Shown in pieces: positions 3,272 to 19,224 of a stretch of DNA of 31,027 nucleotides. How positions within the stretch are numbered: the first letter of the stretch is position 1; every line of letters starts with the position of its first letter. Both the position numbers and the translations under genes were made by a program. The stretch is from a virus, in the IMG/VR virus record IMGVR_UViG_3300032220_001968, positions 1-31,027 of that record; one strand, 5' to 3'. The notes below the pieces were generated by a model. That model had not been told where the DNA came from and did not search any database. It saw nothing but the letters and a program-made list of their open reading frames with translations.

Positions 3272-4141
3272 TTAAAAAAGCTCATATTCAATATCTGAGT
3301 TTCCTAGACCCCAATCTTTAGAATTTTCAGATGTTTCGAAAAATTCAACCCATTTCCAGACATCGTTATATTTTGGTGGGGCCTTTTCAGCATTTTTATG
3401 TACTGCTTTAGTATGTGCTTGTGGTAAAATATTTTCATGAGACATATGATACATTGGAATATCATATACAGCTTCAAGTTTATAACCAGCAAGTGCTACT
3501 TTTTTCTGGATATTAGTGTCTATGAAACAATTATGGAACATATTTTCTTCAAATCCTTTAACATCAAACCAAATTTTACGAGGTGCTAATTGAAAATCTC
3601 CACAACAATTTATTAAACTATAATTATCATTAGGAGATACTTTTGCATTATAATAACGAGGTTCTGTTGATTCTTTAAGATATTGTCTATATTGATCTAA
3701 ATTATTTATATTAGATAATGCCTCGGAATACTCAATTTCTCGCCTACTAACGGTGTAGAATGTGTTATAATCACTGTTATTTATTAACCCATGTAATTCA
3801 TCTCTTGTTGGAGGAATATTATCAGTTGTAGTTGATACAATCCAATCAGCATCTGTTCGTCTTAATGCTAGATTAAAGGATGATGGACCAAAACATTTAG
3901 GAATATCAGGAACATAAGTTGAATACAATTTATGAACTGATGGGGGAATAATAAAATGTTTAATACGCCCTGTTTTAGGAACTAAGTCTTCTACTTCATA
4001 TAAAAAACTTCTACCTTCTGAATTCCAATCAACATAATTGACTTCATCGAAAGTGTCTAATAGGGTGTTTAAATGAATGGCGAATCGTTCTTTTTCTTTA
4101 TAACCATCATTTCTACTAAAAGTAATAACTGCAGTTTTCAT
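3272..4141 (-). CDS. Glycosyltransferase, GT-A fold
   Basis: The 289-residue product is predicted to transfer a sugar from a nucleotide donor. The N-terminal half looks like a Rossmann-type donor domain with a DADW motif (about residues 97-100) in place of a canonical DxD, then a TTTDN stretch. The C-terminal half resembles the galactosyltransferase type: VKGFEENMFHNCFIDTNIQ followed by ALAGYKL and a closing MSHEN His motif. It is the last gene of the sugar cluster in the direction of transcription and lies 12 bases after the PfkB kinase gene. Donor and acceptor unknown. Confidence 0.75.
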   Translation of the reverse strand: MKTAVITFSRNDGYKEKERFAIHLNTLLDTFDEVNYVDWNSEGRSFLYEVEDLVPKTGRIKHFIIPPSVHKLYSTYVPDIPKCFGPSSFNLALRRTDADWIVSTTTDNIPPTRDELHGLINNSDYNTFYTVSRREIEYSEALSNINNLDQYRQYLKESTEPRYYNAKVSPNDNYSLINCCGDFQLAPRKIWFDVKGFEENMFHNCFIDTNIQKKVALAGYKLEAVYDIPMYHMSHENILPQAHTKAVHKNAEKAPPKYNDVWKWVEFFETSENSKDWGLGNSDIEYELF

Positions 4142-4153
4142 TTTTAAATTATA

Positions 4154-4888
4154 TTAGATTGTAGATACTCCTGATTTTTGAACTACAATTGTTGTACATT
4201 CTTGAGCAAATTCAATTGCTAGATTTATATTTTTAGAACGAACATATTCTATTACTAGTCCTGCTAAAAATGTATCACCAGCACCCGAAACATCTTTAAC
4301 TGAAACTTCTTGAGTTGGGTAATTTTTTCCTTGATAATCACATCCTAAAGGTCCTCTAGTAACTATAATTTTATCTGATAGTGTTTTATCGGTAGTTAAA
4401 AGAGATTTATTGTTACTAAATTCCAACGAATTAATTTTTATAAAATCAACATCATATGCCCATTCACCTAATATTTTTTTAGTGTCTAAAAATACGGGAC
4501 AATCAAAACTTTTAGCAATAGTTTTAATATCTTCTTCTGTTAAAAATCCTTTACAGTAATCTGAAATAACAATGGCATCAAATACTCCTGTCTTAAATGG
4601 GACTATGTCTATCTTTTCACAAGTATCGTTTTCATCTACTCGTAATAATAAATGATTATACTTAGAACAAACGTATCTAATTTTACGTATTTCTGTTTTA
4701 TTAGTAATAAATTCTACCTCAGCACCTAATGATTTTAAATTAGCTACTACATTTCCTGCCATCCCGGGATTAGAGGTTTCTTTGTGGGGTTTTATAATAG
4801 GGATAGGTGCTTCAGGAGCTAAACGAGTAACTTCTCCATATTTAAAAATATCTACACACGAATCTCCTATAACTAATATTTTACTCAT
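4154..4888 (-). CDS. PfkB-family sugar kinase, heptose-7-phosphate kinase-like
   Basis: The product is 244 residues. It opens with ILVIGDSCVDIFKYG and RLAPEAPIPI, features of the HldE/RfaE kinase domain, which phosphorylates D-glycero-beta-D-manno-heptose 7-phosphate. The PfkB signature DVSGAGDTF at about 199-207 contains the catalytic base Asp205. It is shorter than bacterial HldE kinase domains (about 310 residues), mainly through a reduced middle, and no nucleotidyltransferase partner is fused or nearby. Its true substrate is therefore open: heptose phosphate, ribose or another ketose/aldose. It overlaps the upstream flavoprotein gene by 8 bases. Confidence 0.8.
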   Translation of the reverse strand: MSKILVIGDSCVDIFKYGEVTRLAPEAPIPIIKPHKETSNPGMAGNVVANLKSLGAEVEFITNKTEIRKIRYVCSKYNHLLLRVDENDTCEKIDIVPFKTGVFDAIVISDYCKGFLTEEDIKTIAKSFDCPVFLDTKKILGEWAYDVDFIKINSLEFSNNKSLLTTDKTLSDKIIVTRGPLGCDYQGKNYPTQEVSVKDVSGAGDTFLAGLVIEYVRSKNINLAIEFAQECTTIVVQKSGVSTI

Positions 4889-5603
4889 AAATTTCTATTT
4901 TAATTTGTTTTTTATCGAATCCTAAATTTTGAAGGATGGTTTTAGCTTGTTTAACCATTTCTTTCCAACCACAAATAAAAAATTCTAAATCTAAATTATT
5001 ATATGTTCCTTGTTCAATTTGTAGGAAATAATTTTGAATTATTTCTTCATAAACAGAATGTACATAACCTTGTTTACCATTCCAAATTTCTCTTGATAAA
5101 ATAATATGATATTTAAACTGTAGAAGATCTTTTTCTAGTTGAAGCATTTCATCATAGTATAAAATACTTTCTCTATCTCTAGTACCAAATATCAAATTAA
5201 TATCTCCTGTTTCTATATTATTTTCTTTTATATATTCTAACATACATTTAAAAGGAGAAATCCCAGTACCTGTACATATAAAAATATAATTCTTTTTAGT
5301 GTCATTCCCCATAGTCATTATACCTGAGGGGCCTTCAAATTCAATTTCAGTACCTAAAGGTGAGTTCCAAAGATATTCTGTACCTTTACCTCCAGGCTTT
5401 TTTACTATAATTAATTCATAGGTTTTATTTGAAGGAGAATTAGCAACTGAATAGTGTCTTATTCTTCTTGTTGGTTTTTCATCAATTGGTAATTCTAATG
5501 AAACAAATTGACCAGGTTTAAAAAAAGATTTATTTTCTGGTTGGAGATAAAAGCGGCTAGTAGTAGGTGTTTCTTTAACTACATCAATTAATTTGGCTTT
5601 CAT
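4881..5603 (-). CDS. Ferredoxin-NADP reductase-like flavoprotein
   Basis: The 240-residue protein has the two-domain FNR plan. A beta-barrel FAD domain carries RHYS (49-52), and an NAD(P) domain carries CTGTGISPF (110-118) and a late CGWKEMV near residue 212. No plant-type [2Fe-2S] ferredoxin domain is attached, unlike the AscD/E3 reductases that serve sugar 3-dehydratases. It would pass electrons between NAD(P)H and a separate protein such as a ferredoxin. Its place inside a sugar cluster, two genes from a radical-SAM-recycling pair, suggests a reductive step there; the partner is not visible. Confidence 0.85.
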   Translation of the reverse strand: MKAKLIDVVKETPTTSRFYLQPENKSFFKPGQFVSLELPIDEKPTRRIRHYSVANSPSNKTYELIIVKKPGGKGTEYLWNSPLGTEIEFEGPSGIMTMGNDTKKNYIFICTGTGISPFKCMLEYIKENNIETGDINLIFGTRDRESILYYDEMLQLEKDLLQFKYHIILSREIWNGKQGYVHSVYEEIIQNYFLQIEQGTYNNLDLEFFICGWKEMVKQAKTILQNLGFDKKQIKIEIYE

Positions 5604-6150
5604 TTAGTAATTCCTTTATTTTATTAAAACCTACCTGACACATGTCTTTCCAGTGAGAAAAATCACCATCATCACTAACCCATTTATAACAATCAAATTT
5701 TACACCAAACTTCCAACATACTTTTGATAAAGCAAAACATTCCATATCAAAAACATCACAATTTTCTACCATTGATAGATAACTTGGAGAATATTTACTT
5801 TTTTGGTATTTATCATAAAAATAATCTGTTGTAAAACAAGTATAATTTGTTTTAGTATCTATGATAATTTGGTTTCCTGGGGTTTCACCTGGTGTGTAAC
5901 CATATTCTGCTATAGGACTAGTATCTATATCTTGAAATACTTGACCTATTTTTATAATATCACCAGGATTATGTTTTAACGAACCACATGAACCAATATT
6001 AATTATGTGTTTATAACCACTATTTACCGCATTATAAGCAGCCATAGTGGCGTTAATTTTCCCAATACCACTAAATATAACAGGACTTCCTAATATAGTA
6101 GTATCATTATTTATTTCATCTGGAAGGGCTACTATAAAGATTTTACTCAT
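5584..6150 (-). CDS. MTA/SAH nucleosidase-like protein (PNP/UDP family)
   Basis: The 188-residue product belongs to the nucleoside phosphorylase/nucleosidase superfamily. It has FSGIGKINA (26-34), INIGSCGSL (50-58) with GDI, DMECFAL with Glu137 for ribose binding, and WVSDDGD with Asp160 in the position of the catalytic Asp of MTA/SAH nucleosidase. It is shorter than the bacterial enzyme (about 230 residues). Expected reaction: release of adenine from methylthioadenosine, S-adenosylhomocysteine or 5'-deoxyadenosine. The next gene upstream encodes adenine phosphoribosyltransferase, and an 8-base overlap ties the two. Inosine or other nucleoside substrates cannot be excluded. Confidence 0.8.
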   Translation of the reverse strand: MSKIFIVALPDEINNDTTILGSPVIFSGIGKINATMAAYNAVNSGYKHIINIGSCGSLKHNPGDIIKIGQVFQDIDTSPIAEYGYTPGETPGNQIIIDTKTNYTCFTTDYFYDKYQKSKYSPSYLSMVENCDVFDMECFALSKVCWKFGVKFDCYKWVSDDGDFSHWKDMCQVGFNKIKELLNESQIN

Positions 6151-6625
6151 ATTTTATCAAACTTTTTATATTATTTTTATGTAAGAAAGTTAAATCAATT
6201 AAAACAATTTTATCTATAACTTCATAACCTGCTTTGATGCATAGCTGTTCAGCAGCATCCATTGTACCTCCAGTAGCATAAACATCATCTACAATTACTA
6301 CTTTACCTTTACCAGGTTGAATTTCTAAAGTATCAGTCCCATATTCTAAACTATAAGATAATTCAATAGTTGGAGGTGGTAATTTACCTTTTTTGCGAAT
6401 TAATTTAAGTCCTTTTTGTGTTTTTTGAGCCATTGCTGAGGAGAAAATGAATCCTCTAGAATCTATACCAATAAAATAATCTGGGGGTGGGATTAAATTT
6501 AACATCTGAGTAATAGCTTCATTGAATATTTTTCCATTAGAAAGTAATGGTTGAATATCTTTAAAGATAATTTCTTTTTTAGGGAAATCAGGAATATCTT
6601 TTATGTATGATTTAAAATCAAGCAT
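6143..6625 (-). CDS. apt: Adenine phosphoribosyltransferase
   Basis: This 160-residue enzyme joins adenine and PRPP to give AMP. The family features are all present: IPDFPKKEIIFKDI near the N-terminus, GIDSRGFIF (53-61), LIRKKGKLP followed by SYSLEYGTDTLEI, and the PRPP loop VVIVDDVYATGGT (109-121). Length is close to the bacterial Apt norm of 170-180. The frame also offers a GTG just before the ATG at 6623-6625; I use the ATG. The start overlaps the end of the RmlC-like gene. Its pairing with a nucleosidase makes it an adenine salvage step. Confidence 0.93.
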   Translation of the reverse strand: MLDFKSYIKDIPDFPKKEIIFKDIQPLLSNGKIFNEAITQMLNLIPPPDYFIGIDSRGFIFSSAMAQKTQKGLKLIRKKGKLPPPTIELSYSLEYGTDTLEIQPGKGKVVIVDDVYATGGTMDAAEQLCIKAGYEVIDKIVLIDLTFLHKNNIKSLIKYE

Positions 6626-7094
6626 CACGTTTAGATAAAATAGGATTATTTATTGGCCAATGTATACCTAGTCTTTGATCGTTCCACTTTAAACTAAATT
6701 GGTCTTGTACATCAGGATATTCTCCAGGATATGACCATTTATAAAAAAATGTTGCTTCAGGACTTAAAACTAAATGACCATTAGCAAACATAGGAGGAAC
6801 TAAAACTGATTTTTTATTTTTTGAAGTTAAAATAATAGAATCCCAACACAAATAATTTTCAGATTCGGGTCTATTATCTACTATTACTAAATAAATTTCA
6901 CCTGAAAGGCATGTTATATGTTTCCAAGATTTATGATCTCCATGTAAACCACGTAGTACATTTTGTCTTGAAACTGCTACTTTATCATGGTTAAAAACTA
7001 AATCACTGTCTTCTTGTTTGAATAAAGTGTATAACTCACCTCTATAATCTTCAAAAGAATCAGGTTGAAATATTTTTACTTCGGGGAATATCAT
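6618..7094 (-). CDS. RmlC-like sugar 3,5-epimerase (cupin)
   Basis: The 158-residue protein has the dTDP-4-dehydrorhamnose 3,5-epimerase pattern: FEDYRGELYTLFKQ early, VSRQNVLRGLHGD (43-55), an HITCLSGEIYLVIVDNRPES strand, VPPMFANGHLVL and FYKWSYPGEYPD, ending in GIHWPINNPILSKRDA. It should epimerise a nucleotide-linked 4-keto-hexose next to the keto carbon. It is shorter than RmlC (about 180). The 4-base junction with the ColD-like dehydratase gene suggests the two act on the same sugar. The nucleotide carrier (dTDP, CDP or GDP) cannot be read from the sequence. Confidence 0.88.
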   Translation of the reverse strand: MIFPEVKIFQPDSFEDYRGELYTLFKQEDSDLVFNHDKVAVSRQNVLRGLHGDHKSWKHITCLSGEIYLVIVDNRPESENYLCWDSIILTSKNKKSVLVPPMFANGHLVLSPEATFFYKWSYPGEYPDVQDQFSLKWNDQRLGIHWPINNPILSKRDA

Positions 7095-8269
7095 AATGAA
7101 TTTAATACATTAATTAAAGTATCTATTTTTTCTCGTTCTAATGAAGGATAATTTCCAACATACCATCCGAAATGATGAACATGATCCATATTTAGGAATT
7201 GAGAATGATCTATATTAAAATGTTTTTTAAACCAAGGTTGTCTTAATTGATTACCACCACCTGATAGTCCTCTTCTAAATTCGATACCATTTTCACGTAG
7301 TGTTAATTCTAGTTTATTTCTAGTTTCAAAGTTACCTTCTTTTAATACAATAATAAAAGCATAATTACATTGTCCATCCATTTCAATATCAGTATGATAT
7401 TTGTTTGGATTAAGACGTTCCATAAAATATTTAAAATTATCAATTCGATGTGAATTATTTGAATCTAATTTTTTAATTTGAGACAAACCAATTACAGCAT
7501 TGATTTCAGTACTTCTAAAGTTATGAGCAGGACGAATAAAGATAAAATCAGGATTTAAATCAGGATTAGCATCAATAATTTCTTGTTTCATTTTATCATT
7601 AGTCATTTCTCTCATCATACCATGTGAACGTAATGCTCTACATATTTGATAAAATTTTTCATCATTAGTACAAATCATCCCACCTTCAATAGTAGACATA
7701 TGATGAGCAAAGTAAAAACTAAAATTACTTGCAAAACCATAAGTACCTACTTTTTGACCTTTAAATGTTGTACCGTGAGATTCACAAACATCTTCAATTA
7801 ATAAAATATTATTTTCATTACATAATTGAATTAGTTCATCAGTTAATCCGTTAATACCCAGTACATGAGTTAAAAATATTGCTCTTGTGCTTGGAGTGAT
7901 ACTTTGTTTTAATTTTTCAATATCAAACGAGAAATTTTTTAAATTTATATCACAAAATACAGGTTTCATCCCACTAAAAACAACAGATGAAATATCTGAT
8001 ATCCAGGTAAGAGGGGGTACTATTATTTCACCTTCGCCATGAATGTAATTTAAAGCTAACATAGTTAGTTCATTTGCTGATGCTCCTGAATTTACCATGA
8101 GATTATATTTTGTACCTAACCACTCACCCCAAGCATTTTCAAATTCAATTACTTTAGGACCATTAGTTAATTTAGGTATTTGATCTTGACTTAAAAAATC
8201 AATTACTGCTTTAACATCTTCTTTATCGATGTTATCACTCATTAAGGGTAATTTAAAACTTTCCATCAT
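7091..8269 (-). CDS. ColD-like PLP/PMP-dependent sugar 3-dehydratase (DegT family)
   Basis: This 392-residue protein has the DegT/DnrJ/EryC1/StrS fold, with NSGASANELT (60-69) for cofactor phosphate binding and EDVCESHG with Asp160. In the loop FSFYFAHHMSTIEGG the residue that is Lys in sugar aminotransferases is His189. That swap marks ColD (GDP-4-keto-6-deoxymannose 3-dehydratase) and E1-type 3-dehydrases, which remove the C3 hydroxyl rather than transaminate. No CxC-containing [2Fe-2S] motif is present, so it resembles ColD rather than E1. Expected role: making a 3-deoxy sugar. Two ATG codons stand in tandem at the start. Confidence 0.85.
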   Translation of the reverse strand: MMESFKLPLMSDNIDKEDVKAVIDFLSQDQIPKLTNGPKVIEFENAWGEWLGTKYNLMVNSGASANELTMLALNYIHGEGEIIVPPLTWISDISSVVFSGMKPVFCDINLKNFSFDIEKLKQSITPSTRAIFLTHVLGINGLTDELIQLCNENNILLIEDVCESHGTTFKGQKVGTYGFASNFSFYFAHHMSTIEGGMICTNDEKFYQICRALRSHGMMREMTNDKMKQEIIDANPDLNPDFIFIRPAHNFRSTEINAVIGLSQIKKLDSNNSHRIDNFKYFMERLNPNKYHTDIEMDGQCNYAFIIVLKEGNFETRNKLELTLRENGIEFRRGLSGGGNQLRQPWFKKHFNIDHSQFLNMDHVHHFGWYVGNYPSLEREKIDTLINVLNSL

Positions 8270-8957
8270 TGTTTAAATATTCTGTTAATTTTTTTATATC
8301 TTGTTTAAACTCGGTTGAATTAAAATGATAATTTCTTGTTAAATAATTTCTATCAATTACTTCTGCTTTACCCTCAGTGGTTTCATCAAAATGTTCATAA
8401 TCATGTTCTAAAACAACATCATCAATCAAAGAATTAATACCAATTTTTTCTCCTAATTCATATAAATAGGTATCAATTTGGTTATGAGGAGATATATGAC
8501 CTAAAAGTTCATACAATTTTTTAGGAAATAAGGGAAAAGCCCATCTATAACCAAAACTAGGATTTGGATAATAAACTTTAAATTCAGTCAAATGTTTTTC
8601 TAGTAATGTATTCCAATTTTGGGTTTTCATTATTAAATCATCATTAAATCCTAATATCCATTGACCTTCAGCACATCTTATTAAATTTTCAACAAAGTCA
8701 ACCATATTAAGCCAACCGTTTTTTCTTGAATTAGTTATAAAAGTTACATTTTCAAATTCATTTCCCCAATTTTTTATATAATCAATAGATTCATGGTCAT
8801 CTAAATCTAATTTAACTAATATTTCAAAATTTACATTTTCAGGATCAGCTGTAGAAAGAAGAGAAAATAAAGTGTCATTCAACATTTCTATTCTTTTTCG
8901 GGAAGGAAATATTACTGAGATTTTAATTGGGGATGGGTTTCTATTTACTAATTCCAT
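8253..8957 (-). CDS. Glycosyltransferase, GT2-like
   Basis: The 234-residue product has a GT-A donor domain: KISVIFPSRKRIEML at the N-terminus, KLDLDDHES (about 49-57) and the metal/nucleotide motif GFNDDL (about 103-108). The C-terminal part, with ISPHNQIDTYLYELGEKIG and an HDYEHFDE acidic stretch, resembles phage and capsule transferases. It is cytoplasmic, without membrane spans. Its ends overlap the dehydratase and the TPP-enzyme beta genes by 17 bases each, so it is in the same operon and may attach the sugar those genes make. Confidence 0.78.
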   Translation of the reverse strand: MELVNRNPSPIKISVIFPSRKRIEMLNDTLFSLLSTADPENVNFEILVKLDLDDHESIDYIKNWGNEFENVTFITNSRKNGWLNMVDFVENLIRCAEGQWILGFNDDLIMKTQNWNTLLEKHLTEFKVYYPNPSFGYRWAFPLFPKKLYELLGHISPHNQIDTYLYELGEKIGINSLIDDVVLEHDYEHFDETTEGKAEVIDRNYLTRNYHFNSTEFKQDIKKLTEYLNNDGKF

Positions 8958-9858
8958 TTTTAATATTTTTTAGCTTTTCAATTATTTTTTCAGCAGATGG
9001 TGGTAAATTATCTACATTAGCATAAAAACCAGCTGTACGAGGTTCTAGACCTAATGTCCATATTTTCTTTCCAGAAGCCAAACTTAATTCATTAGCAATA
9101 CTACTTGCTGTACCTTCTACAAAATCATCATCTGTTACTAACCCACCAAATTTAGAATTATCTAAGGCAATTTTCCATTTATCTTCAACAATAAAAGGTT
9201 TAAGCCATAATTGGTGAATTATGTTTAGTTGAATGTCTTCTTGTTTAGCTAATTCAACTAGTTTTTTCATTTCTAATCTAGTAATAGAAATAGGAAAAAT
9301 AGTAAAATCAGCTTTAGGTAAAATAATATTTTCTAATTCTTCAGTATTATCATATGACTTTCTATGTTCTGAGATGTAATAAGGTTCATCTTCATCCATA
9401 AAACAATCATAAACATATTGGTACTCTCCAGGAGTCATAGGTGCTACTACTTTTATACCAGGCATACGTTGAGCCATTGAATGGTGAGATGAACCAGCTA
9501 CTGGCCCTACACCACCTTCCATAGCAATACTTCGAACAAAAATTGGACATGGACGATTCCAAATTTCTTTAGATTTTGCAGCATAATTAACTATTGAAGC
9601 TAAATTATACCATTGAAATCCTTGATAACGAACTACATACATTGGTCTACCACCTGCTAAAGCAATTCCAGTAGCAATTGCTCCTCCAGCGACATCAGCC
9701 ATTGAAAATTCAACCATTCCTTCCTCTTCATACATTTCAGGTAATGTACCTCCAACCCAACCAACTGCTGTTAAGCATTGTCCGTAACATTTACCTTTAT
9801 TTTCTGAGAGGTGTTTGTGGGTTATTCCTTTTATTGTATCTCTAACTGTTGTTGCCAT
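8941..9858 (-). CDS. ThDP-dependent E1-type enzyme, beta subunit
   Basis: The 305-residue protein resembles the beta subunit of 2-oxoacid dehydrogenase E1 or the C-terminal half of transketolase. The pyrimidine-binding half has FSMADVAGGAIATGIALAGG (51-70) and the FVRSIAMEGGVGPVAGSSHHS region, followed by a transketolase C domain (about 180-295). The ATG is preceded by AAAGTT. It overlaps the alpha gene by 28 bases. No lipoyl acyltransferase (E2) or lipoamide dehydrogenase is nearby, so the pair probably does not feed a classic dehydrogenase complex; a carbon-unit transfer onto a sugar is a reasonable alternative. Confidence 0.83.
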   Translation of the reverse strand: MATTVRDTIKGITHKHLSENKGKCYGQCLTAVGWVGGTLPEMYEEEGMVEFSMADVAGGAIATGIALAGGRPMYVVRYQGFQWYNLASIVNYAAKSKEIWNRPCPIFVRSIAMEGGVGPVAGSSHHSMAQRMPGIKVVAPMTPGEYQYVYDCFMDEDEPYYISEHRKSYDNTEELENIILPKADFTIFPISITRLEMKKLVELAKQEDIQLNIIHQLWLKPFIVEDKWKIALDNSKFGGLVTDDDFVEGTASSIANELSLASGKKIWTLGLEPRTAGFYANVDNLPPSAEKIIEKLKNIKNGISK

Positions 9859-10664
9859 AACTTTTCTATAAGTAACTTATTATTTGTATCAATTTCTAAA
9901 GCTTCATTGCCTAAGAATTCTAATTCTTGTTCATAACGAGTGTTATAATCACCATCCATTCCAGCTCCAGCATGCCAATATTTTCTTGTTGTGTTAATAT
10001 TTAAAAGCATAGGGTATGAAAAGTCATAATTTTCTAAATGATTTTGAATAGTTAATGGGTTGTCATCTATATTAAAAGCTTTCATATTAAATGCTTTTGC
10101 AACATCGTCCATTTCCCAATTTCGTCTTGCTTTTTTTTCAGTTAAAATAGATAAATTATTATCTTCAACAATGAATAAAATAGGTAAATTTTTAGTTGAT
10201 GCCCATCCTAATGCTCCTAAAACATAATCTTCTTCTGCAGATGCATCACCCATTGTTACAATTGTAGGTTTACGAGTTACATAAGCATGCCCAACAGCAA
10301 TAGGAACTTGACTCCCCATTAAACCATCATGCCCAAAAATATTTTTTTCAATTGATTGAATTGAAGCTGAGCCACCCATTCCATTAGCACATCCTGTTTT
10401 ACGTCCTAATAATTCATCAATTAATTGAATTGGATCGGCTCCCTTACAAAGATAATGGGAATGTCCTCTATGCTGGATAAATAAATTAGTATCAATTCCT
10501 TTTTCTTCCAAAATTGTAAAAATTGATGCTGGGATATATTCTTGTCCTGCTGACAGATATGCGGGGATTAAAATTGTTTTATTTTGAAGGTTTTTATAAA
10601 CTTGGTTTTCAAAATGTCTACAAAAAGATGCTTTAGCAAATGCTTTTAATCTATAATTACTCAT
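9831..10664 (-). CDS. ThDP-dependent E1-type enzyme, alpha subunit
   Basis: The 277-residue protein resembles E1 alpha of pyruvate/acetoin dehydrogenase. The HRGHSHYLCKGADP region (65-78) and GCANGMGGSASI (91-102) are typical of the family. The thiamine-diphosphate/Mg motif runs from GDAS (139-142) to DNN (168-170). I choose the ATG at 10662-10664. It follows AAAGTT directly and overlaps the upstream stop in ATGA form; the longer reading would need a TTG at 10695-10697. With the beta subunit it should decarboxylate a 2-oxo acid and transfer the resulting C2 unit, or oxidise it, if a partner exists. Confidence 0.85.
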   Translation of the reverse strand: MSNYRLKAFAKASFCRHFENQVYKNLQNKTILIPAYLSAGQEYIPASIFTILEEKGIDTNLFIQHRGHSHYLCKGADPIQLIDELLGRKTGCANGMGGSASIQSIEKNIFGHDGLMGSQVPIAVGHAYVTRKPTIVTMGDASAEEDYVLGALGWASTKNLPILFIVEDNNLSILTEKKARRNWEMDDVAKAFNMKAFNIDDNPLTIQNHLENYDFSYPMLLNINTTRKYWHAGAGMDGDYNTRYEQELEFLGNEALEIDTNNKLLIEKLWQQQLEIQ

Positions 10665-11044
10665 AACTTTTTCATAAAATTTAATGTATCTTTCCAATTT
10701 TCAAAACGATACCCATTATCATCAATGTATAATTCTGCTCTTGGTTTTTCGGATGTTACCGAGTCTACATACTGAGCTACATTATATTTTTCTAACCATT
10801 CTAAAACGTGAGTAACTCCTGTTTTACCATTTACAAGAGGCCTATCAGATTTAGCTTTAGCAGTAAATATAATAATATTATATTGTTCTGAAAGGTTGTG
10901 TAATGCTTCTAATGAACCTGGGAGTGGATCTCCATAACAAGTTCCATCATGCCATCCTTTATCAGCATTGTGAATTACACCATCGAAATCGATGGCTAAA
11001 TTCTTTTTTTCGGATTCAAATCCTGGGGGGTAAAAATTAGCCAT
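10661..11044 (-). CDS. Small HAD-superfamily phosphatase-like protein
   Basis: The 127-residue product carries the HAD motif I DFDGVIH with Asp19 and Asp21, motif II in IIIFTAKA, and a C-terminal KPRAELYIDDNGYRF that supplies the motif III/IV Lys and paired Asp. There is no cap domain, as in the small HAD proteins found in capsule and LPS clusters. It probably removes a phosphate from a sugar phosphate or nucleotide sugar intermediate; substrate unknown. It ends in ...KKL and its stop overlaps the next ATG within AAGTTATGA. Confidence 0.8.
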   Translation of the reverse strand: MANFYPPGFESEKKNLAIDFDGVIHNADKGWHDGTCYGDPLPGSLEALHNLSEQYNIIIFTAKAKSDRPLVNGKTGVTHVLEWLEKYNVAQYVDSVTSEKPRAELYIDDNGYRFENWKDTLNFMKKL

Positions 11045-12256: not shown

Positions 12257-12292
12257 GTTTGTAATATAATAATTTAATTTATAAAATCCAAA

Positions 12293-13831
12293 TTAATCTC
12301 CTAAAATTTTACGTTTTAATTTAATTTTAGTATTATTCAGAATATTTTCAACAGCTTGATCTCCATATTTATTTCTAACTTTTTCTAAAAATTTAGGGTT
12401 AGTATGATATTTAATATAAGCTTCATCTCTAAATCTTAAGATTTCTTCTGATGTTAAGGTTTCATTTGGAACGGGGACTGTAGTATATGAATGGAAAGAA
12501 TAATCTACATAATTTTCTGGTGGTGTATAACCTCTGTCAATAGCATCTTTATAAACTTGACTTCCTGGGAGTGGCATACAACCATACATGTTAGCCATCA
12601 TTGGGGATAATTCTATTGCTAAATCTAAAGTAGTTTGCATAGATTCTAATGTATCACCTGGGAGTCCAAAAATAAAGTTTCCACCAACATTGATTCCTGC
12701 TTCTTCTATTTGGTGAACTACTTTAGCAATATCTACATCTTCAAATTTACCTTTAGAAACTTCCAATCTTACATTTTTATCACCACTTTCAATACCTAAA
12801 CCTAACCATCTAACCCCAGCATCTCTAAGTAATTTTAATATTCCTGGTCGGCGAACTGTGTCTATTCTAGAGTAAGCCCACATTCTCAATTTATCACCAT
12901 ATCCTCTTTCTATTAAACCTTCACATAAAGGAACATAATATTTAGGATTTAATAGAAACATTTCATCTATAATTCGAATATTATAAACTCCCATTTCTAC
13001 TAATTTATCAAATTGTTTTAATACAAACTCAGGAGACCAATATCTCATTAAACTGTAATTACCTGCTACTCCAATAGGATCGTTATCATTTCTGTTTAAA
13101 ATGTTAATCATACAGAATTCACATCCAAATTGACATCCTAAAGAAGAGTTTACAGCAGCATATGGAGTTCTAAGAGAATGATCATACTCAGCATGCCACA
13201 TTGGGCTTCTATATAAGTCAAATGGTTTTTCATTATAAGGAAGTAAATCCCAAGCATATCCTGGAAGATCTTCGTCCATTTTGTTATTAGGAACTAATCG
13301 TTCAGGTTGATTTAATACTACTGTTTCTTTTACTCTATATCCGATTCCTTTAATATCTTTAAGATTACTCATAAAGTCATCATATGAAAGTAAATTACGC
13401 AAAGCATAAACTCCTTCATTAGTGAAAACGAAATCAATGTTTTTTTCTTTTTCTAATGTTTGGAAAGGGAGAGCTTGAACATGAGATCCAATAAAACCTA
13501 TAGGAGTATTAATATTATTTTCTTTAATAAAATTAGTTAAACCTACAGCTCCACTCATCATTGTTGTACCAGCATTTACGTTTTGGCCATAAACTACAAA
13601 ACAAATAAATCTTGGGTTATCTTGTTTAATACGTTCTAAAGATTCTTCATGAGATAAATTTTCAGCTCCTGTGTCTAAAATATTTACTTTATATCCTATA
13701 GATCGGCAAGATTCAGCTAATAAGCAAGCCCATGTAGGTGGTTCAATCCCCGCGTAATCTTTAGCTAAGTCTTGATATATACCAGCTGCATTGCTAGGAG
13801 CAATAAATAAAACATCTAAATTTTCTTTCAT
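12293..13831 (-). CDS. Radical SAM protein with B12-binding-type N-terminus
   Basis: The 512-residue protein has the BchE/cobalamin-dependent radical SAM layout. Residues 1-150 form a Rossmann-like domain with PPTWACLLAE and NILDTG; a DxHxxG cobalamin His motif is not visible. The radical SAM domain follows, with the [4Fe-4S] motif CQFGCEFC (Cys233, Cys237, Cys240). It then has GGNFIFGLPGDT (about 384-395), a late strand typical of the subfamily, and a C-terminal tail. It likely methylates or rearranges an unactivated carbon, perhaps on the nucleotide sugar; the substrate is not evident. Each turnover would release methionine and 5'-deoxyadenosine. Confidence 0.88.
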   Translation of the reverse strand: MKENLDVLFIAPSNAAGIYQDLAKDYAGIEPPTWACLLAESCRSIGYKVNILDTGAENLSHEESLERIKQDNPRFICFVVYGQNVNAGTTMMSGAVGLTNFIKENNINTPIGFIGSHVQALPFQTLEKEKNIDFVFTNEGVYALRNLLSYDDFMSNLKDIKGIGYRVKETVVLNQPERLVPNNKMDEDLPGYAWDLLPYNEKPFDLYRSPMWHAEYDHSLRTPYAAVNSSLGCQFGCEFCMINILNRNDNDPIGVAGNYSLMRYWSPEFVLKQFDKLVEMGVYNIRIIDEMFLLNPKYYVPLCEGLIERGYGDKLRMWAYSRIDTVRRPGILKLLRDAGVRWLGLGIESGDKNVRLEVSKGKFEDVDIAKVVHQIEEAGINVGGNFIFGLPGDTLESMQTTLDLAIELSPMMANMYGCMPLPGSQVYKDAIDRGYTPPENYVDYSFHSYTTVPVPNETLTSEEILRFRDEAYIKYHTNPKFLEKVRNKYGDQAVENILNNTKIKLKRKILGD

Positions 13832-13835
13832 ATTT

Positions 13836-14774
13836 TTATAAATTAGTAAAATCTTTATCTTTGGATTTTTTAATCAATTGGTAACCTTCAATTAATTCTT
13901 GAATACCATCTTCAAGTGTAAAGGTAGGTACCCATCCTTGAGATTCCAACTTAGCATTTGAAACCATATAGTTTCTTTGATCAAAGTCCTGTTTAAAATT
14001 ATTTTCAACAATAACTAAATCAGGAACATATTTTTGAATAGTTTGTGCTAATTCTAGTTTTGTACAATTTGCTGAGGTTAAACCTACATTAAAAGCATTA
14101 TTATTACACTTTTCATAGTTTTCAATCATGAATACAAATGTGTTAGCAATGTCTCTAATGTGTATATAATTGCGAATAAAATGGGATTCAAACAATACCA
14201 AATAACCATCCGTAAGTGCTTTATATACAAAATCATTTACTAATAAATCCATTCTCATTCTATAAGACATACCAAACACTGTTGCTAATCTTAAAACAAT
14301 CCCATTACCTGAGTCTAGTATTGCTTTTTCAGCATTACATTTAGTTTCAGCATAAAGTGAAAGAGGTTTAAATGGAGAATCTTCAGTAATAATTTCTGTA
14401 GAGGAACCATATTGACTATTGGTATTAGGAATTAATACCATTTGATTTTTAGTAACCCATTTTGTAATATTATTTACCTGTTCAAAATTAATTTTTACAG
14501 TTAATTCAGGTTGAGCTTTACAAGCAGGCATACCTACAATAGCTGCTAATGGAATAATTACATCATGTGCTTCTACTAAGGGACGTAGGATAGAGTTATT
14601 AGTTACATCACCTAAAATAAATTTAAAATTTTTATTAAAGCTAAAAGGAGCTACTGATGTTTGTTTATAGATTAAATTATCTAATACAGTTACTTGATAT
14701 CCTTTTTCTAATAAAACTTCTGTTAAAACGGAACCTAAATAACCAGCTCCTCCTGTTATTAAAACTTTTTTCAT
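13836..14774 (-). CDS. NAD-dependent sugar epimerase/dehydratase (SDR)
   Basis: The product is 312 residues of the extended short-chain dehydrogenase family. It has GGAGYLG (8-14) for NAD, GDVTNN with Asp56, Ser120 in NTNSQYG, and the catalytic pair Tyr141/Lys145 in YAETK, then RNYIHIRDIA. It acts on a nucleotide-linked hexose: 4-epimerisation, 4,6-dehydration or 4-keto reduction are all possible. Because the ColD-like enzyme needs a 4-keto-6-deoxy sugar, supplying or finishing that sugar is a reasonable role. It is one base from the upstream gene. Confidence 0.88.
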   Translation of the reverse strand: MKKVLITGGAGYLGSVLTEVLLEKGYQVTVLDNLIYKQTSVAPFSFNKNFKFILGDVTNNSILRPLVEAHDVIIPLAAIVGMPACKAQPELTVKINFEQVNNITKWVTKNQMVLIPNTNSQYGSSTEIITEDSPFKPLSLYAETKCNAEKAILDSGNGIVLRLATVFGMSYRMRMDLLVNDFVYKALTDGYLVLFESHFIRNYIHIRDIANTFVFMIENYEKCNNNAFNVGLTSANCTKLELAQTIQKYVPDLVIVENNFKQDFDQRNYMVSNAKLESQGWVPTFTLEDGIQELIEGYQLIKKSKDKDFTNL

Positions 14775-14775
14775 A

Positions 14776-15174
14776 TTACCAACTAATTTCCCAATCTTTA
14801 AAATCTGCAGCTAAACAATCAATTTTGTAATCTTTACGACCACCTACTACTTCTTGAATACGATTTTTAGCTACATTACGAATACCATTTAAACCATGTG
14901 TTAATTCTAGGTTATTACCGTCTTTAATACCTTTACGATAATTAGATTCATTATGCCAAATATGAAGATTCATTTGAGATAAAACAACTATAGCACGAAT
15001 AGTTTCAGCTGTTATTTTACCATTTTGCTCATCAAGTAATACTTGGATATCATGAACGATATCAGCAATTTCTTGTGAGTATTCATTTTTATGTTCTACA
15101 ATAAACACTTCTTTAAGCTGAGCAATAGACAATCTGTCTACTAATTCACTAAGGGTTGGTAGGTACTTTCTCAT
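14776..15174 (-). CDS. Small helical protein of a glycan cluster (132 aa)
   Basis: The 132-residue product is mostly helical with a LSELVDRLSIAQLKEVF start and a WHNESNYRKG segment at about 74-83. The opening resembles small proteins of unknown function that recur in LPS and capsule gene clusters (a DUF4254-like pattern), though I am not sure of the match. No membrane span or catalytic motif. It overlaps the upstream glycosyltransferase stop by 4 bases and lies next to the SDR gene. Confidence 0.65.
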   Translation of the reverse strand: MRKYLPTLSELVDRLSIAQLKEVFIVEHKNEYSQEIADIVHDIQVLLDEQNGKITAETIRAIVVLSQMNLHIWHNESNYRKGIKDGNNLELTHGLNGIRNVAKNRIQEVVGGRKDYKIDCLAADFKDWEISW

Positions 15175-15806
15175 TTTAATTCTCCTATTTCAATTTTGGT
15201 ATAACGTTCATTTTGATTTTCTTGACGGTCAATTGTCTTATTATGGATAATACTCCATTCTTCAGTAAATGGTAAGGTTGCAAATGTTTTATAACCTTCA
15301 ACCATTCCATGCACCTGGTGACCTGACCATTTAATTTCAGGGGTATTTTTATAAATGCGTTTTTGAGCATCAGGCCAGTTAACCCAACCTTGTTCATTTA
15401 CATTCCACCCCCATTTTTGAATATGTTCTGGGGTTAATCCTTCAACTAAATTTTTACGAGGTGTAATTAATAGATCTACTGGATTGTCTTCTAAAATAGC
15501 TTTTAAATTTTCCACTAAAAAACTTTCAGGTATTTCATCAGCATCAATCTGGAAGATATAATCTCCGATACATTTACTGTTCATGAAGTTTTTATTTTCA
15601 AGGAAATTTTGTTGGAAATTAAAAGGATGAGCATTTGCTTCTTCTTTATAATCTTCTATAACCTTTAATACTTCTGGGGTGACTCTATTTTGATCATAAA
15701 CTACTACGATTTCATCTTCCCCATCAATTCTTTTAATTAAATACTCAATTAAATTTTTTAATTCTTCGTGTTCATTACACACGGTTAATCCATAACTTAT
15801 TTTCAT
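15171..15806 (-). CDS. Glycosyltransferase family 2
   Basis: The 211-residue product is a compact GT-A transferase. It has ISYGLTVCNEHEELKNLIEYL at the start, DEIVVVYDQN, then the DxD motif in YIFQIDADEIP (about 87-97), and a C-terminal acceptor region with WSGHQVHGMVEGY. This is the common layout of family 2 enzymes acting on glycan or O-antigen chains. It shares the operon with the neighbouring zinc-ribbon and SDR genes. Donor and acceptor unknown. Confidence 0.85.
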   Translation of the reverse strand: MKISYGLTVCNEHEELKNLIEYLIKRIDGEDEIVVVYDQNRVTPEVLKVIEDYKEEANAHPFNFQQNFLENKNFMNSKCIGDYIFQIDADEIPESFLVENLKAILEDNPVDLLITPRKNLVEGLTPEHIQKWGWNVNEQGWVNWPDAQKRIYKNTPEIKWSGHQVHGMVEGYKTFATLPFTEEWSIIHNKTIDRQENQNERYTKIEIGELK

Positions 15807-15817
15807 AATAATATAAT

Positions 15818-16273
15818 TTATTCAGGTAATACGTCAATATACGAAAGAGCTTCCATATAATCACGCTCAGAGAACATTTTTAATGTAGTCATATCCATTC
15901 TCCATTCATAGTATTCTCCTTTTTTTCCTGGGATTGGGTATTTTTCTTTTTCTTCATCTAGGACTTTTACAGCTTTTACTGCTGCCCATCCCCAATCTTC
16001 TTTAGAAGGTCCATTAGCAAATATCATACCTTGTTGGGGTAAATTTACTGATGATGCCATCCATATTTTTCCTTCCTCATCTTTATAAAATAAATCTTTA
16101 TAAAGTTCAGGAAGAATATTTGATTGTTCTTCAAAAAATGTTTCTCCTTCTTTCATTATGGAGTTGGTTTGAAAACCGCATCCATAACAAAAGTAAGTTT
16201 TAATATCTTGGTTCACTTCTTCAACATAACATGCATCTGAACCACAACGGGAGCAAGTAATTAGATTATCCAT
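15818..16273 (-). CDS. Zinc-ribbon protein of unknown function (151 aa)
   Basis: The N-terminus has CSRCG (Cys7/Cys10) and CYGCG (Cys29/Cys32), a clear C4 zinc ribbon. The remaining 110 residues hold an aromatic, acidic domain without a recognised motif. It sits between two glycosyltransferase genes and overlaps the upstream one by 8 bases. A structural or nucleic-acid-binding role is possible; a link to glycan synthesis rests only on position. Confidence 0.7.
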   Translation of the reverse strand: MDNLITCSRCGSDACYVEEVNQDIKTYFCYGCGFQTNSIMKEGETFFEEQSNILPELYKDLFYKDEEGKIWMASSVNLPQQGMIFANGPSKEDWGWAAVKAVKVLDEEKEKYPIPGKKGEYYEWRMDMTTLKMFSERDYMEALSYIDVLPE

Positions 16274-17567
16274 TTATTGTTTCTTTTTTAGGTAATTCAA
16301 TTTTTTTAATAGTTGGAAGTTTTAAAGAAACTTCTTTTGGAAATTCAGGTATAGAAGAATCTAAAAGATTATCTAATTTTTCCTTCATTTTATCCCAACT
16401 AAAATTTGTTTTACTATGGAATGATTGACGTTTAGCTTTATCAATATAGTTTTTATAATTCTCAAATACATCTTTCATGTAAAAACCTGTCTGGCCATTG
16501 TCTGCAGAGAACCATTGAGATTCAGATAACAACCATTGGTTAGCGGCACTAGGATGAACATTAGTTAACTGACCTCCAATTAAGTTAGTAAATTCTGGGT
16601 TAAGAAAATCAACATGGCCTGACCATCCTGTAGTAATAAGTGGTTTTTTGGTTAAAGTAAATTCAAGTAATGGACGACCAAATCCTTCACCTTTAGTTAA
16701 ATTAACCATAGCTTTAACTTTAGGATTATTGTATAGTTCATTCATTTCTTCATCAGTAAACTCACCATGAAGTAAATAAACATTTGGTAGGTTTTTAGAA
16801 TTTACTGTTTCTTTTATTTGTTTAATTTTTTTAAGAATTTCTTCTCTATCAACATAAGATGAACCTACTTGGGATGTTTTTAGAATTAATGCTGGTTTTT
16901 TAGTTTTATTTTTAAAGATTTCATAGAATGCTTTTATTAATAAACCTACATTTTTTCTATCTTCACCCATATCTCCAGCAATCCAGTGACCTACAAACAA
17001 ATATGCAAAATCTTCCTTGATAGGACTTAAATCAATATTTTTATTAGTATTTTTTTCTAATACTTTATATACATCAGTATTAACACCTTCAAATAATACT
17101 TCTATAGGTTTTTCTAATTTAATAACACCTTCTAAAGCATTTGTTTGACGATTACGTTTTTCAAATTGTGTACTTAAAAATATTTGTTTTGAATGTTCTG
17201 AGGATACAATATTAAGATCCATTCTATTACAACCTTCAACCCAGTCTGCGGGAACAATAGTAGTTTCTATACCTGCTGTAAAACCAATATTGTACTTTCC
17301 AATAAGTTGGAATTCACTTGGGATAGTTACCTGAGCCCATATTTCAGGTTGTTTAGGAAGTTGGTTATTTGAAAAAGTTAAATCTAGTAAAAATGCCCAT
17401 TCAGGGTTATCTTTACAAAAACCAAACGGAGTAGCACCCCAACGTTGAGATAATAATCTCACAGTATATTTATCTGTTTCAATAATGGCTTTAATTAAAT
17501 CCCTTGAACGAGCACCGTAGCCACTGTAGGTATCAAAAGGGGCACTTATAACGAATAATGGTTTCAT
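16266..17567 (-). CDS. Glycosyltransferase family 4/group 1
   Basis: The 433-residue GT-B protein starts with PLFVISAPFDTYSGYGARSRD, the acceptor-domain glycine-rich loop. The donor domain holds FVGHWIAGDMGEDRKNVGLLIKAF and the E-x7-E-like region MVNLTKGEGFGRPLLEFTLTKKPLITTGWSGHVDFL, where the two Glu contact the nucleotide-sugar. It is predicted to be cytoplasmic. It lies just before a second GT4 gene with one base between them, so the two may work in order on one glycan. Confidence 0.87.
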   Translation of the reverse strand: MKPLFVISAPFDTYSGYGARSRDLIKAIIETDKYTVRLLSQRWGATPFGFCKDNPEWAFLLDLTFSNNQLPKQPEIWAQVTIPSEFQLIGKYNIGFTAGIETTIVPADWVEGCNRMDLNIVSSEHSKQIFLSTQFEKRNRQTNALEGVIKLEKPIEVLFEGVNTDVYKVLEKNTNKNIDLSPIKEDFAYLFVGHWIAGDMGEDRKNVGLLIKAFYEIFKNKTKKPALILKTSQVGSSYVDREEILKKIKQIKETVNSKNLPNVYLLHGEFTDEEMNELYNNPKVKAMVNLTKGEGFGRPLLEFTLTKKPLITTGWSGHVDFLNPEFTNLIGGQLTNVHPSAANQWLLSESQWFSADNGQTGFYMKDVFENYKNYIDKAKRQSFHSKTNFSWDKMKEKLDNLLDSSIPEFPKEVSLKLPTIKKIELPKKETING

Positions 17568-17568
17568 T

Positions 17569-19011
17569 TTAATATAACAAATTATGATTTATAACTCTAT
17601 CTTTTATTTCATTAGCATTGATTAATTCATATTTTTTTCTTGGTTTCCAAGTTTTAAATAATGTATCAAAGGCTTCAATGATTCTTTCTCCTTGAATAAG
17701 GCCTGTAAATCCAGCTTCACTTAATGCCCATTCTCTACCTTTTAATCCTTTAGCTTTACGTTCTTCTTTATCTAAAGAATAAACAGCCATGATTTGTTCA
17801 GCAGCATCCTCAGGACGACATCTATCATCCCAAATATAAGGAGTTTGAGGTGAACCTTGGATTGAACGATTATTTGGAAATACTGGGAAAGCCCATTCAC
17901 CGCATTTTTTATATTTCCCTGTATTATTGGAAGGAATTTCAGGTGATGGTGTAAACCAATTCCCATCTTCATCTTCAAATCTCATTTGATCTTGCATTCC
18001 TCCAGTTACATTAGCAATAATTGGATTACCAACTAATATAGCTTCGGTTAATGATAACCCCCAACCTTCATTAGATGTTAAAAGAATTTGTGCGTCTGAT
18101 GAATTATAAATGAAATTCATTTCGGTAGCATTCATTATTTTATTAGTAAAGATTATGTTGTATTTATCTTCATTTAATAATAATTCTTTAATAACTGGAA
18201 GATCTGTTCCATGATCACTTATCATTTCTGTATGAAGTATAAAAGCGCATTTCTTAGCTTGTTCTACTGGAAGTTGATCAATGAAATATTTGTAAGCTAA
18301 CATTGTATCCGGAATTTGTTTACGGCGGATATTTCTTGAATTAAAGAATAATACAAAATCATATTCTTTTCCTTGTAGTAATGATTTTTTAAATTCCTGG
18401 AATTGGGGGTATGATTCGTGGGTTTGGGGGATTGGGAAATATATTTTTTCATTTAACCCATGAGGAACATATCTAACTATTTTATTTTCAGCTTTATCAC
18501 CTAAAACAAGTTTATTAATGTTTACTGTTTGTTTGCTAATCCCCATTAATAAGTCACATGCTTCATAGAATGCTTTATTATAATGAGGTGCTGGGTAATC
18601 ATCCCAAATGTTTAGATAAGTAATAGGAATGTTTTTTCTAATTTCATTTTCAATTGAAAATAACCAAATAAAATAACGTGGATCTGTGATCAACATAATT
18701 GCATCCGGTTTTTCTATTTCAATAATAGTACGAAGAAGTGTTGGATCACCATAATCATTAGCAGGATACATTATGACCGATGAATTATCTATACCAGCAA
18801 CTTCATTAGTTGCTTGAGATAAATCCAAACGTTTACCTTGCTCAGGATGATTGATAGATCCCCCAATGTTTACCCAGTTAAAATGTTGACAGGTGTGTAC
18901 TACTACTTCTCGTCCTACTGTTGCTACTCCCGAATGAACTCGGATATCATCGCAAATTAAGAGAATTTTCTTCCTCTGCTCTGGTGGCAGATATGCAAAA
19001 CTATTATTCAT
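17569..19011 (-). CDS. Glycosyltransferase family 4/group 1
   Basis: The 480-residue protein opens with KKILLICDDIRVHSGVATVGRE, the GT-B N-terminal pattern. The C-terminal donor half includes FNSRNIRRKQIPDTMLAYKYF and SSDAQILLTSNEGWGLSLTEAILVGNPIIANVTGG, which carries the E-x7-E motif. A 40-residue insert rich in Pro/Asn/Trp follows, before the final helix. It is first among the transferases to be transcribed, 21 bases after the small RHH-like gene. Donor and acceptor unknown. Confidence 0.87.
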   Translation of the reverse strand: MNNSFAYLPPEQRKKILLICDDIRVHSGVATVGREVVVHTCQHFNWVNIGGSINHPEQGKRLDLSQATNEVAGIDNSSVIMYPANDYGDPTLLRTIIEIEKPDAIMLITDPRYFIWLFSIENEIRKNIPITYLNIWDDYPAPHYNKAFYEACDLLMGISKQTVNINKLVLGDKAENKIVRYVPHGLNEKIYFPIPQTHESYPQFQEFKKSLLQGKEYDFVLFFNSRNIRRKQIPDTMLAYKYFIDQLPVEQAKKCAFILHTEMISDHGTDLPVIKELLLNEDKYNIIFTNKIMNATEMNFIYNSSDAQILLTSNEGWGLSLTEAILVGNPIIANVTGGMQDQMRFEDEDGNWFTPSPEIPSNNTGKYKKCGEWAFPVFPNNRSIQGSPQTPYIWDDRCRPEDAAEQIMAVYSLDKEERKAKGLKGREWALSEAGFTGLIQGERIIEAFDTLFKTWKPRKKYELINANEIKDRVINHNLLY

Positions 19012-19032
19012 GTAACTAATTTAATTTAATTT

Positions 19033-19224
19033 TTAATCGTTAATTTCTAGGTTGTTGTGGTTGTGTACTTTTTTTCTAAAATCTTCATCGGTAAGATACA
19101 AATGAATTGTTCGATCAGCAAGCTTTTGTAGAGAAAATTTGTATTTTACGCAAGCAATCTTGAAATTTTCGAATAACTCGCTCTGTACTTTTACAGAGGT
19201 CAACGTCATGTCTTTTTTACTCAT
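19033..19224 (-). CDS. Small ribbon-helix-helix-like protein (63 aa)
   Basis: The 63-residue product has a beta strand (TLTSVKVQSELFENF) followed by two helices (KIACVKYKFSLQKLADRTIHLYL), the order found in Arc/CopG-type ribbon-helix-helix DNA-binding proteins. It is small, basic at its start and has no membrane span. It is the first gene after a candidate promoter at 19245-19261 and directly precedes the sugar cluster, so it could regulate that cluster; this is inference. Other small conserved phage proteins share the same fold pattern. Confidence 0.65.
   Translation of the reverse strand: MSKKDMTLTSVKVQSELFENFKIACVKYKFSLQKLADRTIHLYLTDEDFRKKVHNHNNLEIND

Follow-up and report, generated by a model that had tools for sequence, protein, structure and literature searches.

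Which sugar does a phage make when it carries some twenty genes for sugar synthesis and transfer, and to what is that sugar attached? This question is raised by the IMG/VR virus record IMGVR_UViG_3300032220_001968, a stretch of 31,027 bases (the window) with all its substantial genes on the minus strand. An earlier note on this DNA had described about 21 consecutive minus-strand genes of glycan biosynthesis and had proposed an unusual sugar that the phage both synthesises and transfers by itself. We found 20 complete open reading frames (ORFs) between 3272 and 19011, on the minus strand throughout, followed by an ORF of 63 amino acids (aa) at 19033-19224, in agreement with that count. With the small ORF included, the genes overlap at 13 of 20 junctions and the widest gap is 36 bases. 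None of the cluster genes is interrupted, and thus the decay that the same note had named as refuting evidence was not seen. The GC content of the cluster (27-33%) and of its flanks (27-35%) shows no compositional shift. The record is classed as linear in IMG/VR and may therefore be a fragment.

The synthesis and transfer of a sugar by the phage is well supported because the genes are intact, the cluster recurs on at least three phage backbones and the enzymes fit one pathway. The ordinary deoxyhexose implied by the first gene names did not stand; ColD, RmlC and the short-chain dehydrogenase/reductase (SDR) are better read as marks of a heptose-derived, probably C4-branched 3-deoxy sugar. In short, the 20-gene set of this T4-like phage probably turns host heptose into a rare deoxygenated sugar that bears a side chain and is attached inside the cell. 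The full reading, namely a pathway to a rare nucleotide sugar (a heptose oxidised at C4, deoxygenated at C3 and branched at C4), assembled from cassettes and encoded together with the transferases that use it, stands at about an even balance in our estimate. Substrates, order of the steps, product and acceptor are given below as we infer them. Pfam and NCBIfam provided the family names for most of the cluster genes.

Kinase, dehydrogenase and epimerase suggest a heptose as starting sugar

Three genes bear on the starting sugar:
4154-4888, minus strand: PfkB-family kinase, similar to the kinase domain of HldE/RfaE (heptose 7-phosphate kinase; TIGR02198, PDB 4e84)
6618-7094, minus strand: epimerase of the RmlC fold, 4-keto-heptose type by its PDB matches
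13836-14774, minus strand: SDR of the Cj1427 type, predicted nucleoside diphosphate (NDP)-heptose 4-dehydrogenase (PDB 6vo6)

The SDR matched PDB 6vo6, which we take to be the GDP-heptose 4-dehydrogenase Cj1427, with 353 bits and 52% identity, and the next structure scored 73 bits. Its active site keeps the YxxxK motif as YAETK, with an NTNSQYG segment ahead of it. Cj1427 is re-oxidised by 2-oxoglutarate and gives off L-2-hydroxyglutarate (PMC10680097), and the window SDR is predicted to oxidise NDP-heptose with 2-oxoglutarate in the same way. A gene for L-2-hydroxyglutarate oxidase, an enzyme fit to recycle the by-product of a Cj1427-type SDR, was found in seven bacterial loci (six of them with the SDR) and in six phage loci. 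The top eight PDB matches of the RmlC-type protein scored 152-161 bits, and the best further RmlC scored 84 bits. Five of the eight (7m14, 8db5, 8dco, 8dak and 8dcl) bear heptose names given by their depositors (GDP-4-keto-heptose epimerases), and the other three carry the generic name thymidine diphospho-4-keto-rhamnose 3,5-epimerase.

The kinase was followed across related loci. A scan of viral contigs yielded 124 ColD relatives, from which the best 80 loci were retained; ORFs were called and clustered and their order compared in 80 loci (79 of those retained and the window, one short locus being omitted). The kinase slot is occupied by a PfkB kinase in 49 loci and by an HddA-like GHMP kinase in 14, with no locus having both or neither, and both kinds resemble heptose 7-phosphate kinases. 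The locus sets anchored on E1 and on the SDR likewise contained no locus with both types. Two viral loci, L214 and L227, have RmlC and the SDR with a GDP-fucose-synthase-like reductase, without ColD and without an E1 or other thiamine-diphosphate (ThDP) gene. This set matches that of the Campylobacter Cj1427/1430/1428 pathway, and L227 shares the backbone of the window at both ends.

A quite improbable alternative is a colitose-like deoxyhexose pathway, in which ColD would act on GDP-4-keto-6-deoxymannose of the host and the SDR and RmlC would finish the sugar. The names ColD and RmlC point that way, as does the cultured cyanophage S-CAM7, in which a ColD relative is accompanied by GDP-mannose 4,6-dehydratase and GDP-fucose synthase. 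The window, however, has no 4,6-dehydratase, no hexose enzyme approaches 6vo6 in similarity to its SDR, the nearest group of its RmlC protein includes heptose epimerases, and heptose kinases recur among the loci.

The starting sugar of the cluster is therefore taken to be a heptose. In the first step the PfkB kinase would phosphorylate heptose 7-phosphate of the host, which would also supply phosphatase, isomerase and nucleotidyltransferase, as these are not in the window. In the second, the Cj1427-like SDR would oxidise NDP-D-glycero-manno-heptose at C4. Several observations weigh against the heptose reading or lower its certainty. The PfkB kinase scored 136 bits against TIGR02198, under the cut-off of 345, and its best PDB match, the heptose 7-phosphate kinase 4e84, covers residues 2-58 only. 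More generally, the substrates may have drifted because several equivalog scores lie far below the NCBIfam cut-offs. No GmhA, HddC/HldC or recognisable GmhB was found in the window; an HldC-like nucleotidyltransferase motif is present in 22 other viral loci (L217, L227 and 20 more), which suggests that some relatives activate heptose themselves. Finally, HldE-type kinases lead to ADP-beta-heptose, whereas Cj1427 uses GDP-alpha-heptose, and the nucleotide could be either GDP or ADP.

A ColD-type enzyme predicted to remove the C3 hydroxyl

The gene next to the epimerase encodes the deoxygenating enzyme:
7091-8269, minus strand: ColD-type pyridoxal/pyridoxamine phosphate (PLP/PMP) sugar 3-dehydrase, with His at the position of the aminotransferase Lys (PDB 2gms/3gr9)

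Its best PDB matches are the ColD structures 2gms and 3gr9 (193 and 188 bits), and the CDP-sugar 3-dehydrase of the E1/E3 type scored 115-120 bits, so that the protein is closer to ColD. NCBIfam offers only an RfbH model here, with which the protein scored 198 bits, under its cut-off. The motif FYFAHHMSTIEGG, in which His replaces the PLP-binding Lys, is invariant in 15 aligned relatives, and the scanned ColD copies of the E1- and SDR-anchored loci have HH in nearly all cases and HQ in two. Cj1427 together with a C3-dehydratase has been reported to yield GDP-D-glycero-3-deoxy-4-keto-heptose in vitro (PMC10680097). The third step would accordingly be removal of the C3 hydroxyl by the ColD-like enzyme, giving a 3-deoxy-4-keto-heptose. 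The flavoprotein of the cluster (4881-5603, see below) was considered as the E3 reductase of a CDP-sugar 3-deoxygenation and rejected, because ColD-type enzymes use glutamate; the domains recognised in it are those for flavin and nucleotide only, and it is present in just 6 of 63 loci. A second ColD-like gene, whose motif is of the RfbH type (CSFYPAHHITCGEGG or a similar one), was seen in L180 (13712-15022), L183 (15649-16818), L219 and L222, and in L180 and L183 it lies on the strand opposite to the main ColD copy.

Thiamine-diphosphate enzymes and a possible C4 branch

The region upstream of ColD and its neighbouring glycosyltransferase holds the following genes:
8941-9858, minus strand: E1-beta-like half of a ThDP enzyme (Transket_pyr)
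9831-10697, minus strand: E1-alpha-like half of a ThDP enzyme (E1_dh)
10661-11044, minus strand: small HAD-like protein by our own reading of the sequence, with no Pfam or NCBIfam match
11037-11696, minus strand: cupin accompanying the E1 pair and DJ-1 (weak Cupin_2 match)
11696-12256, minus strand: DJ-1/PfpI family protein (PF01965, 117 bits)

The enzyme identities proposed in the earlier note were confirmed, except that its single ThDP enzyme is in fact two genes, E1-alpha-like and E1-beta-like. A ThDP enzyme is present in 74 of the 80 viral ColD loci, the window included, and in 56 of 80 bacterial ones. Four non-orthologous types occupy this slot, namely a full E1 pair, a minimal E1 pair (202 + 178 aa, the commonest), a split transketolase, and an ALS-like protein with PanB. 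The full pair was found in the window and nine other loci, always with cupin and DJ-1. When full E1-alpha was used as a second anchor (28 loci, on contigs partly shared with the ColD-anchored set), E1-beta, cupin and DJ-1 were each found in 28 of 28 loci and relatives of the HAD-like protein in 16. E1-alpha relatives were found in just 5 of 50,697 phage records. The E1-alpha motif GD[AS]...EDNN is conserved in 10 of 10 sequences.

Three families of ThDP enzymes are known to C-branch keto-sugars, the YerE-like decarboxylases, the E1-type enzymes and the transketolases (PMC12247030, a review), and we propose C-branching because the types found in the slot cover all three. In yersiniose synthesis a ThDP enzyme puts an acyl unit on a 3,6-dideoxy-4-keto sugar, and ErwE prefers 4-hydroxy-2-oxo acids (PMC12247030). 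By analogy, the fourth step would be decarboxylation of a 2-oxo acid by the E1-alpha/E1-beta pair, which would then join the resulting acyl unit to the ketone at C4 by carboligation, giving a C4-branched sugar whose stereochemistry the RmlC-type enzyme would fix. If branching occurs at C4, the window needs no C4-reductase.

Against branching, the full-type E1-beta has an invariant Asp (10 of 10, in our own alignment to E1-beta) at the position of the catalytic Glu, which the minimal type appears by eye to retain. Because of this replacement we claim likeness of role to the C-branching ThDP enzymes of the aKADH2 type, and not membership. E1-type enzymes could also have another role. We consider it unlikely that the E1 pair, cupin and DJ-1 instead make or modify an acyl or amide substituent or a small-molecule precursor, with ColD only deoxygenating. 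The Asp fits such a role, and so does the constant company of cupin and DJ-1, whose roles branching does not explain. On the other hand, the slot takes the three ThDP superfamilies known for branching of keto-sugars, it stays beside ColD in 26 of the 28 E1-anchored loci, and the PanB-type enzyme by the ALS-like type could supply 4-hydroxy-2-oxo acids of the kind used by ErwE. PanB (ketopantoate hydroxymethyltransferase, above its cut-off) adjoins the ALS-like protein in L065 (5706-8464), L049, L051, L052, L062 and L063. The HAD-like protein was also considered as the absent GmhB, and this was rejected as it has no detectable kinship to ORFs of the bacterial loci, GmhB-like ones included.

Radical SAM enzyme and its accompanying genes

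A further tailoring enzyme and three accessory proteins are encoded on both sides of these genes:
12293-13831, minus strand: radical S-adenosylmethionine (SAM) enzyme with a B12-binding domain, HpnJ/BchE/AprD4-like (PF04055 and PF02310)
4881-5603, minus strand: FAD/NAD(P)H ferredoxin-reductase-like oxidoreductase (Pfam FAD_binding_6 and NAD_binding_1)
5584-6150, minus strand: nucleosidase-like protein for methylthioadenosine, S-adenosylhomocysteine (SAH) or 5'-deoxyadenosine (PNP_UDP_1; NF004168, 60 bits, under cut-off)
6143-6628, minus strand: adenine phosphoribosyltransferase (APRT; NF002636, 174 bits, above the cut-off of 125)

These three accessory genes, the HAD-like gene and the DJ-1/PfpI gene had been overlooked in the earlier gene list. 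The radical SAM enzyme scored 129 bits with HpnJ in NCBIfam and 56 bits with AprD4 in PDB; HpnJ and BchE outscore AprD4 in NCBIfam. Its CxxxCxxC motif is invariant. All 21 loci with the nucleosidase and all 17 with APRT have the radical SAM enzyme. A pair of GDP-fucose-synthase-like SDRs was found in 0 of 42 loci with the radical SAM enzyme as against 15 of 18 without it. In the bacterial loci, ThDP and radical SAM enzymes are together in 49, alone in 7 and 6, and both absent in 18 (p = 9e-8, uncorrected for kinship). Radical SAM enzymes are inhibited by 5'-deoxyadenosine (PMC8102628). As a fifth step the B12 radical SAM enzyme would make one further change; the nucleosidase and APRT would clear and salvage 5'-deoxyadenosine or SAH, and the flavoprotein is a possible electron donor.

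Replacement of cassettes in viral loci, and their bacterial relatives

The recurring core of the viral loci consists of the SDR, ThDP enzyme, ColD, RmlC and kinase. The genes, their families and key residues, their recurrence and the replacement of one type by another in a slot are direct observations. Along the ColD tree the ThDP type changes at least 17 times. Loci L066, L070 and L071 have backbones 79-86% identical and different ThDP types in the same place, and L005 and L055 are 90-95% identical over ColD, APRT-nucleosidase and the downstream flank and differ in ThDP type. The raw Fisher p-values for the slot exclusions ignore kinship, and a separate kinship-corrected test was made. The corrected results weigh against the modular part of the reading: the kinase swap comes to 2-3 events and the link of nucleosidase to radical SAM enzyme to 1-3, and only the exclusion between radical SAM enzyme and SDR pair reaches p ~0.03.

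The search for co-occurrence suggested in the earlier note showed that the cluster is on many viral contigs and not confined to cells, and that bacteria have the same core too. The phage copies lie on at least three backbones, that of the window, a T4-like one with helicase, late sigma factor and SbcD-like nuclease, and one beside the major head protein. In the ColD tree, whose deep branches are weak, the viral proteins form two groups separated by bacterial sequences; this suggests that ColD was acquired twice or more. Bacterial ColD relatives share as much as 58% identity with the protein of the window, and 80 of their loci were examined (L083-L162). An HddA-like kinase is present in 62 of these 80, and GmhA, GmhB and HddC-like genes in those checked. 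The SDR-HddA-ThDP-ColD-radical SAM core was seen in Verrucomicrobia, Deltaproteobacteria, Cyanobacteria, Omnitrophota, Planctomycetota and others, and no published description of this bacterial core was found. It is conceivable, and we suggest it only tentatively, that bacteria and several lineages of large phages make a new class of sugars, the 4-C-branched 3-deoxy-heptoses, by means of exchangeable kinase, branching and radical SAM-SDR cassettes, giving switchable virion glycans.

Glycosyltransferases and a putatively cytosolic acceptor

Five genes of the cluster are read as glycosyltransferases:
3272-4141, minus strand: GTa, glycosyltransferase of the GT-A fold (AlphaFold2 model, pLDDT 84)
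8253-8957, minus strand: GTb, GT2-type (PF00535)
15171-15806, minus strand: GTc, GT2-type (PF00535)
16266-17567, minus strand: GTd, GT4-type (PF00534)
17569-19011, minus strand: GTe, GT4-type (PF00534)

The number five given in the earlier note holds, four having Pfam matches and GTa, which has no Pfam match, being counted because its model adopts the GT-A fold and, among PDB folds, fits K4CP chondroitin polymerase best (E 5.6e-12). In the sixth step these enzymes would transfer this sugar, along with others, to an acceptor in the cytosol, for which virion proteins are the likeliest candidates. No predicted membrane segment was found in any cluster protein of the window, nor any flippase, polymerase or ABC exporter. 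At least four membrane segments were predicted in 1 of 1723 ORFs of the phage loci and in 66 of 1172 ORFs of the bacterial ones. As the phage loci are nearly without multi-pass membrane proteins, the evidence is somewhat in favour of an acceptor in the cytosol, virion proteins for instance, although export machinery of the host could be used.

A possibility that we rate well short of even is that the product of the same pathway goes onto the lipopolysaccharide (LPS) or capsule of the host and alters receptors so that other phages are excluded. Islands of T4-like pelagimyophages with rfaE, glycosyltransferases and radical SAM cassettes have been read as O-chain modification (PMC7029224). The bacterial relatives lie in clusters resembling those for surface polysaccharides, one of which has a flippase-like gene, and variation of the surface fits the frequent swapping of cassettes. 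Such export would need host machinery, given the scarcity of multi-pass membrane proteins; the location beside head or replication genes does not discriminate. Modification of phage DNA with the sugar is very improbable. The five glycosyltransferases and the lack of export genes agree with it, but no hydroxymethylpyrimidine-making enzyme was recognised in the window (which may be a fragment), and GT2/GT4 types with tailoring of nucleotide sugars suit glycans of polysaccharides or proteins.

Relation to known systems

The capsular heptose pathways of Campylobacter jejuni, with Cj1427 as C4-dehydrogenase, Cj1430 as epimerase and a C3-dehydratase (PMC10680097, PMC10440746), share with the window the SDR, the RmlC protein of the heptose-epimerase group, a ColD-family C3-dehydratase and a heptose kinase. 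The window cluster differs in that it is phage-borne, has no 4,6-dehydratase and no C4-reductase, and adds ThDP and radical SAM enzymes; in the C. jejuni work dehydrogenase and C3-dehydratase were combined in vitro only. With yersiniose and erwiniose synthesis (YerE, ErwE) and the branching of antibiotic sugars by E1-type enzymes or transketolases (PMC12247030, PMC4753412) it shares a ThDP gene beside a 3-deoxygenase that produces a 4-keto-3-deoxy sugar. Those sugars are CDP- or dTDP-linked hexoses, whereas here the sugar would be of heptose type, GDP- or ADP-linked and encoded in a phage genome with four interchangeable ThDP types.

The nearest phage systems are the LPS islands of T4-like cyanophages and pelagimyophages (PMC7029224; S-SM2, P-TIM68, S-CAM7), which have glycosyltransferases, an rfaE-like kinase, E1-like ThDP proteins and nucleotide-sugar genes in common with the window. 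In S-SM2 and P-TIM68 the rfaE-like kinase shares 44-49% identity with viral relatives of the window kinase, and PfkB and heptose genes are accompanied in both phages by an E1-like ThDP protein. Among cultured phage records the best match of the radical SAM enzyme was 24%, the orphan protein u132 (described below) had none, and the SDR had none above 35% identity. Capsid fibres of chloroviruses and mimivirus and capsids of mycobacteriophages are glycosylated by means of sugars and glycosyltransferases that the virus makes for its own particle; here a bacterial virus, a different sugar pathway and a putative acceptor are concerned. LPS-type clusters in T4-like phages are thus known, and the window cluster is a widespread, intact variant of them with a modular pathway of which we found no description; a search of open-licence papers found no phage pathway for a C-branched heptose.

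With the proposed pathway, genes that carry the vague label of LPS genes in phages would be given a testable chemistry. If true, the pathway would be a natural source for the 3-deoxy-heptose intermediate that was made only in vitro, from mixed enzymes, in PMC10680097, and it would form a C-C branch, an unusual step, by any of four interchangeable types of enzyme. Where related phage backbones differ chiefly in their branching cassette, they would be natural experiments on what a phage gains by a change of glycan.

Small conserved proteins and flanking genes

Three small proteins complete the cluster:
14776-15174, minus strand: u132, conserved all-helical orphan protein with no family or fold match
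15818-16273, minus strand: u151, with Cys pairs like those of a zinc ribbon and no Pfam or NCBIfam match
19033-19224, minus strand: 63-aa protein with no PHROG match, conserved on window-type backbones at the edge of the cluster

The aligned relatives of u132 are 48-89% identical; they accompany the PfkB kinase in 32 of 49 loci and the HddA-like kinase in 0 of 14, and none was found among the 50,697 phage records. Assignment of a role by homology was given up, as u132 matched no family, nor did its good model (pLDDT 82) match any fold. Eleven viral ColD loci contain u151. An Mpo1-like protein of 99 aa, from the family of 2-hydroxy fatty acid dioxygenases, was seen in L031 (12424-12723) and 25 other viral loci.

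Replication genes on one side of the cluster and a lysozyme on the other, as the earlier note had it, were both found: PolB, an RFC-type clamp loader and a PD-(D/E)XK exonuclease on one flank, and a transglycosylase/lysozyme at 321-932 on the opposite one. The best match of PolB is that of Microcystis phage Mel-JY01, and with 36% identity it was too distant for assignment of a host. Scans of the window for tRNA genes, Rfam families, promoters and terminators gave nothing informative. By our own reading of the translations, GroEL, GroES, a GTP-cyclohydrolase-like protein and a phosphoribosyltransferase are encoded at 23597-25509 and 29852-31027.

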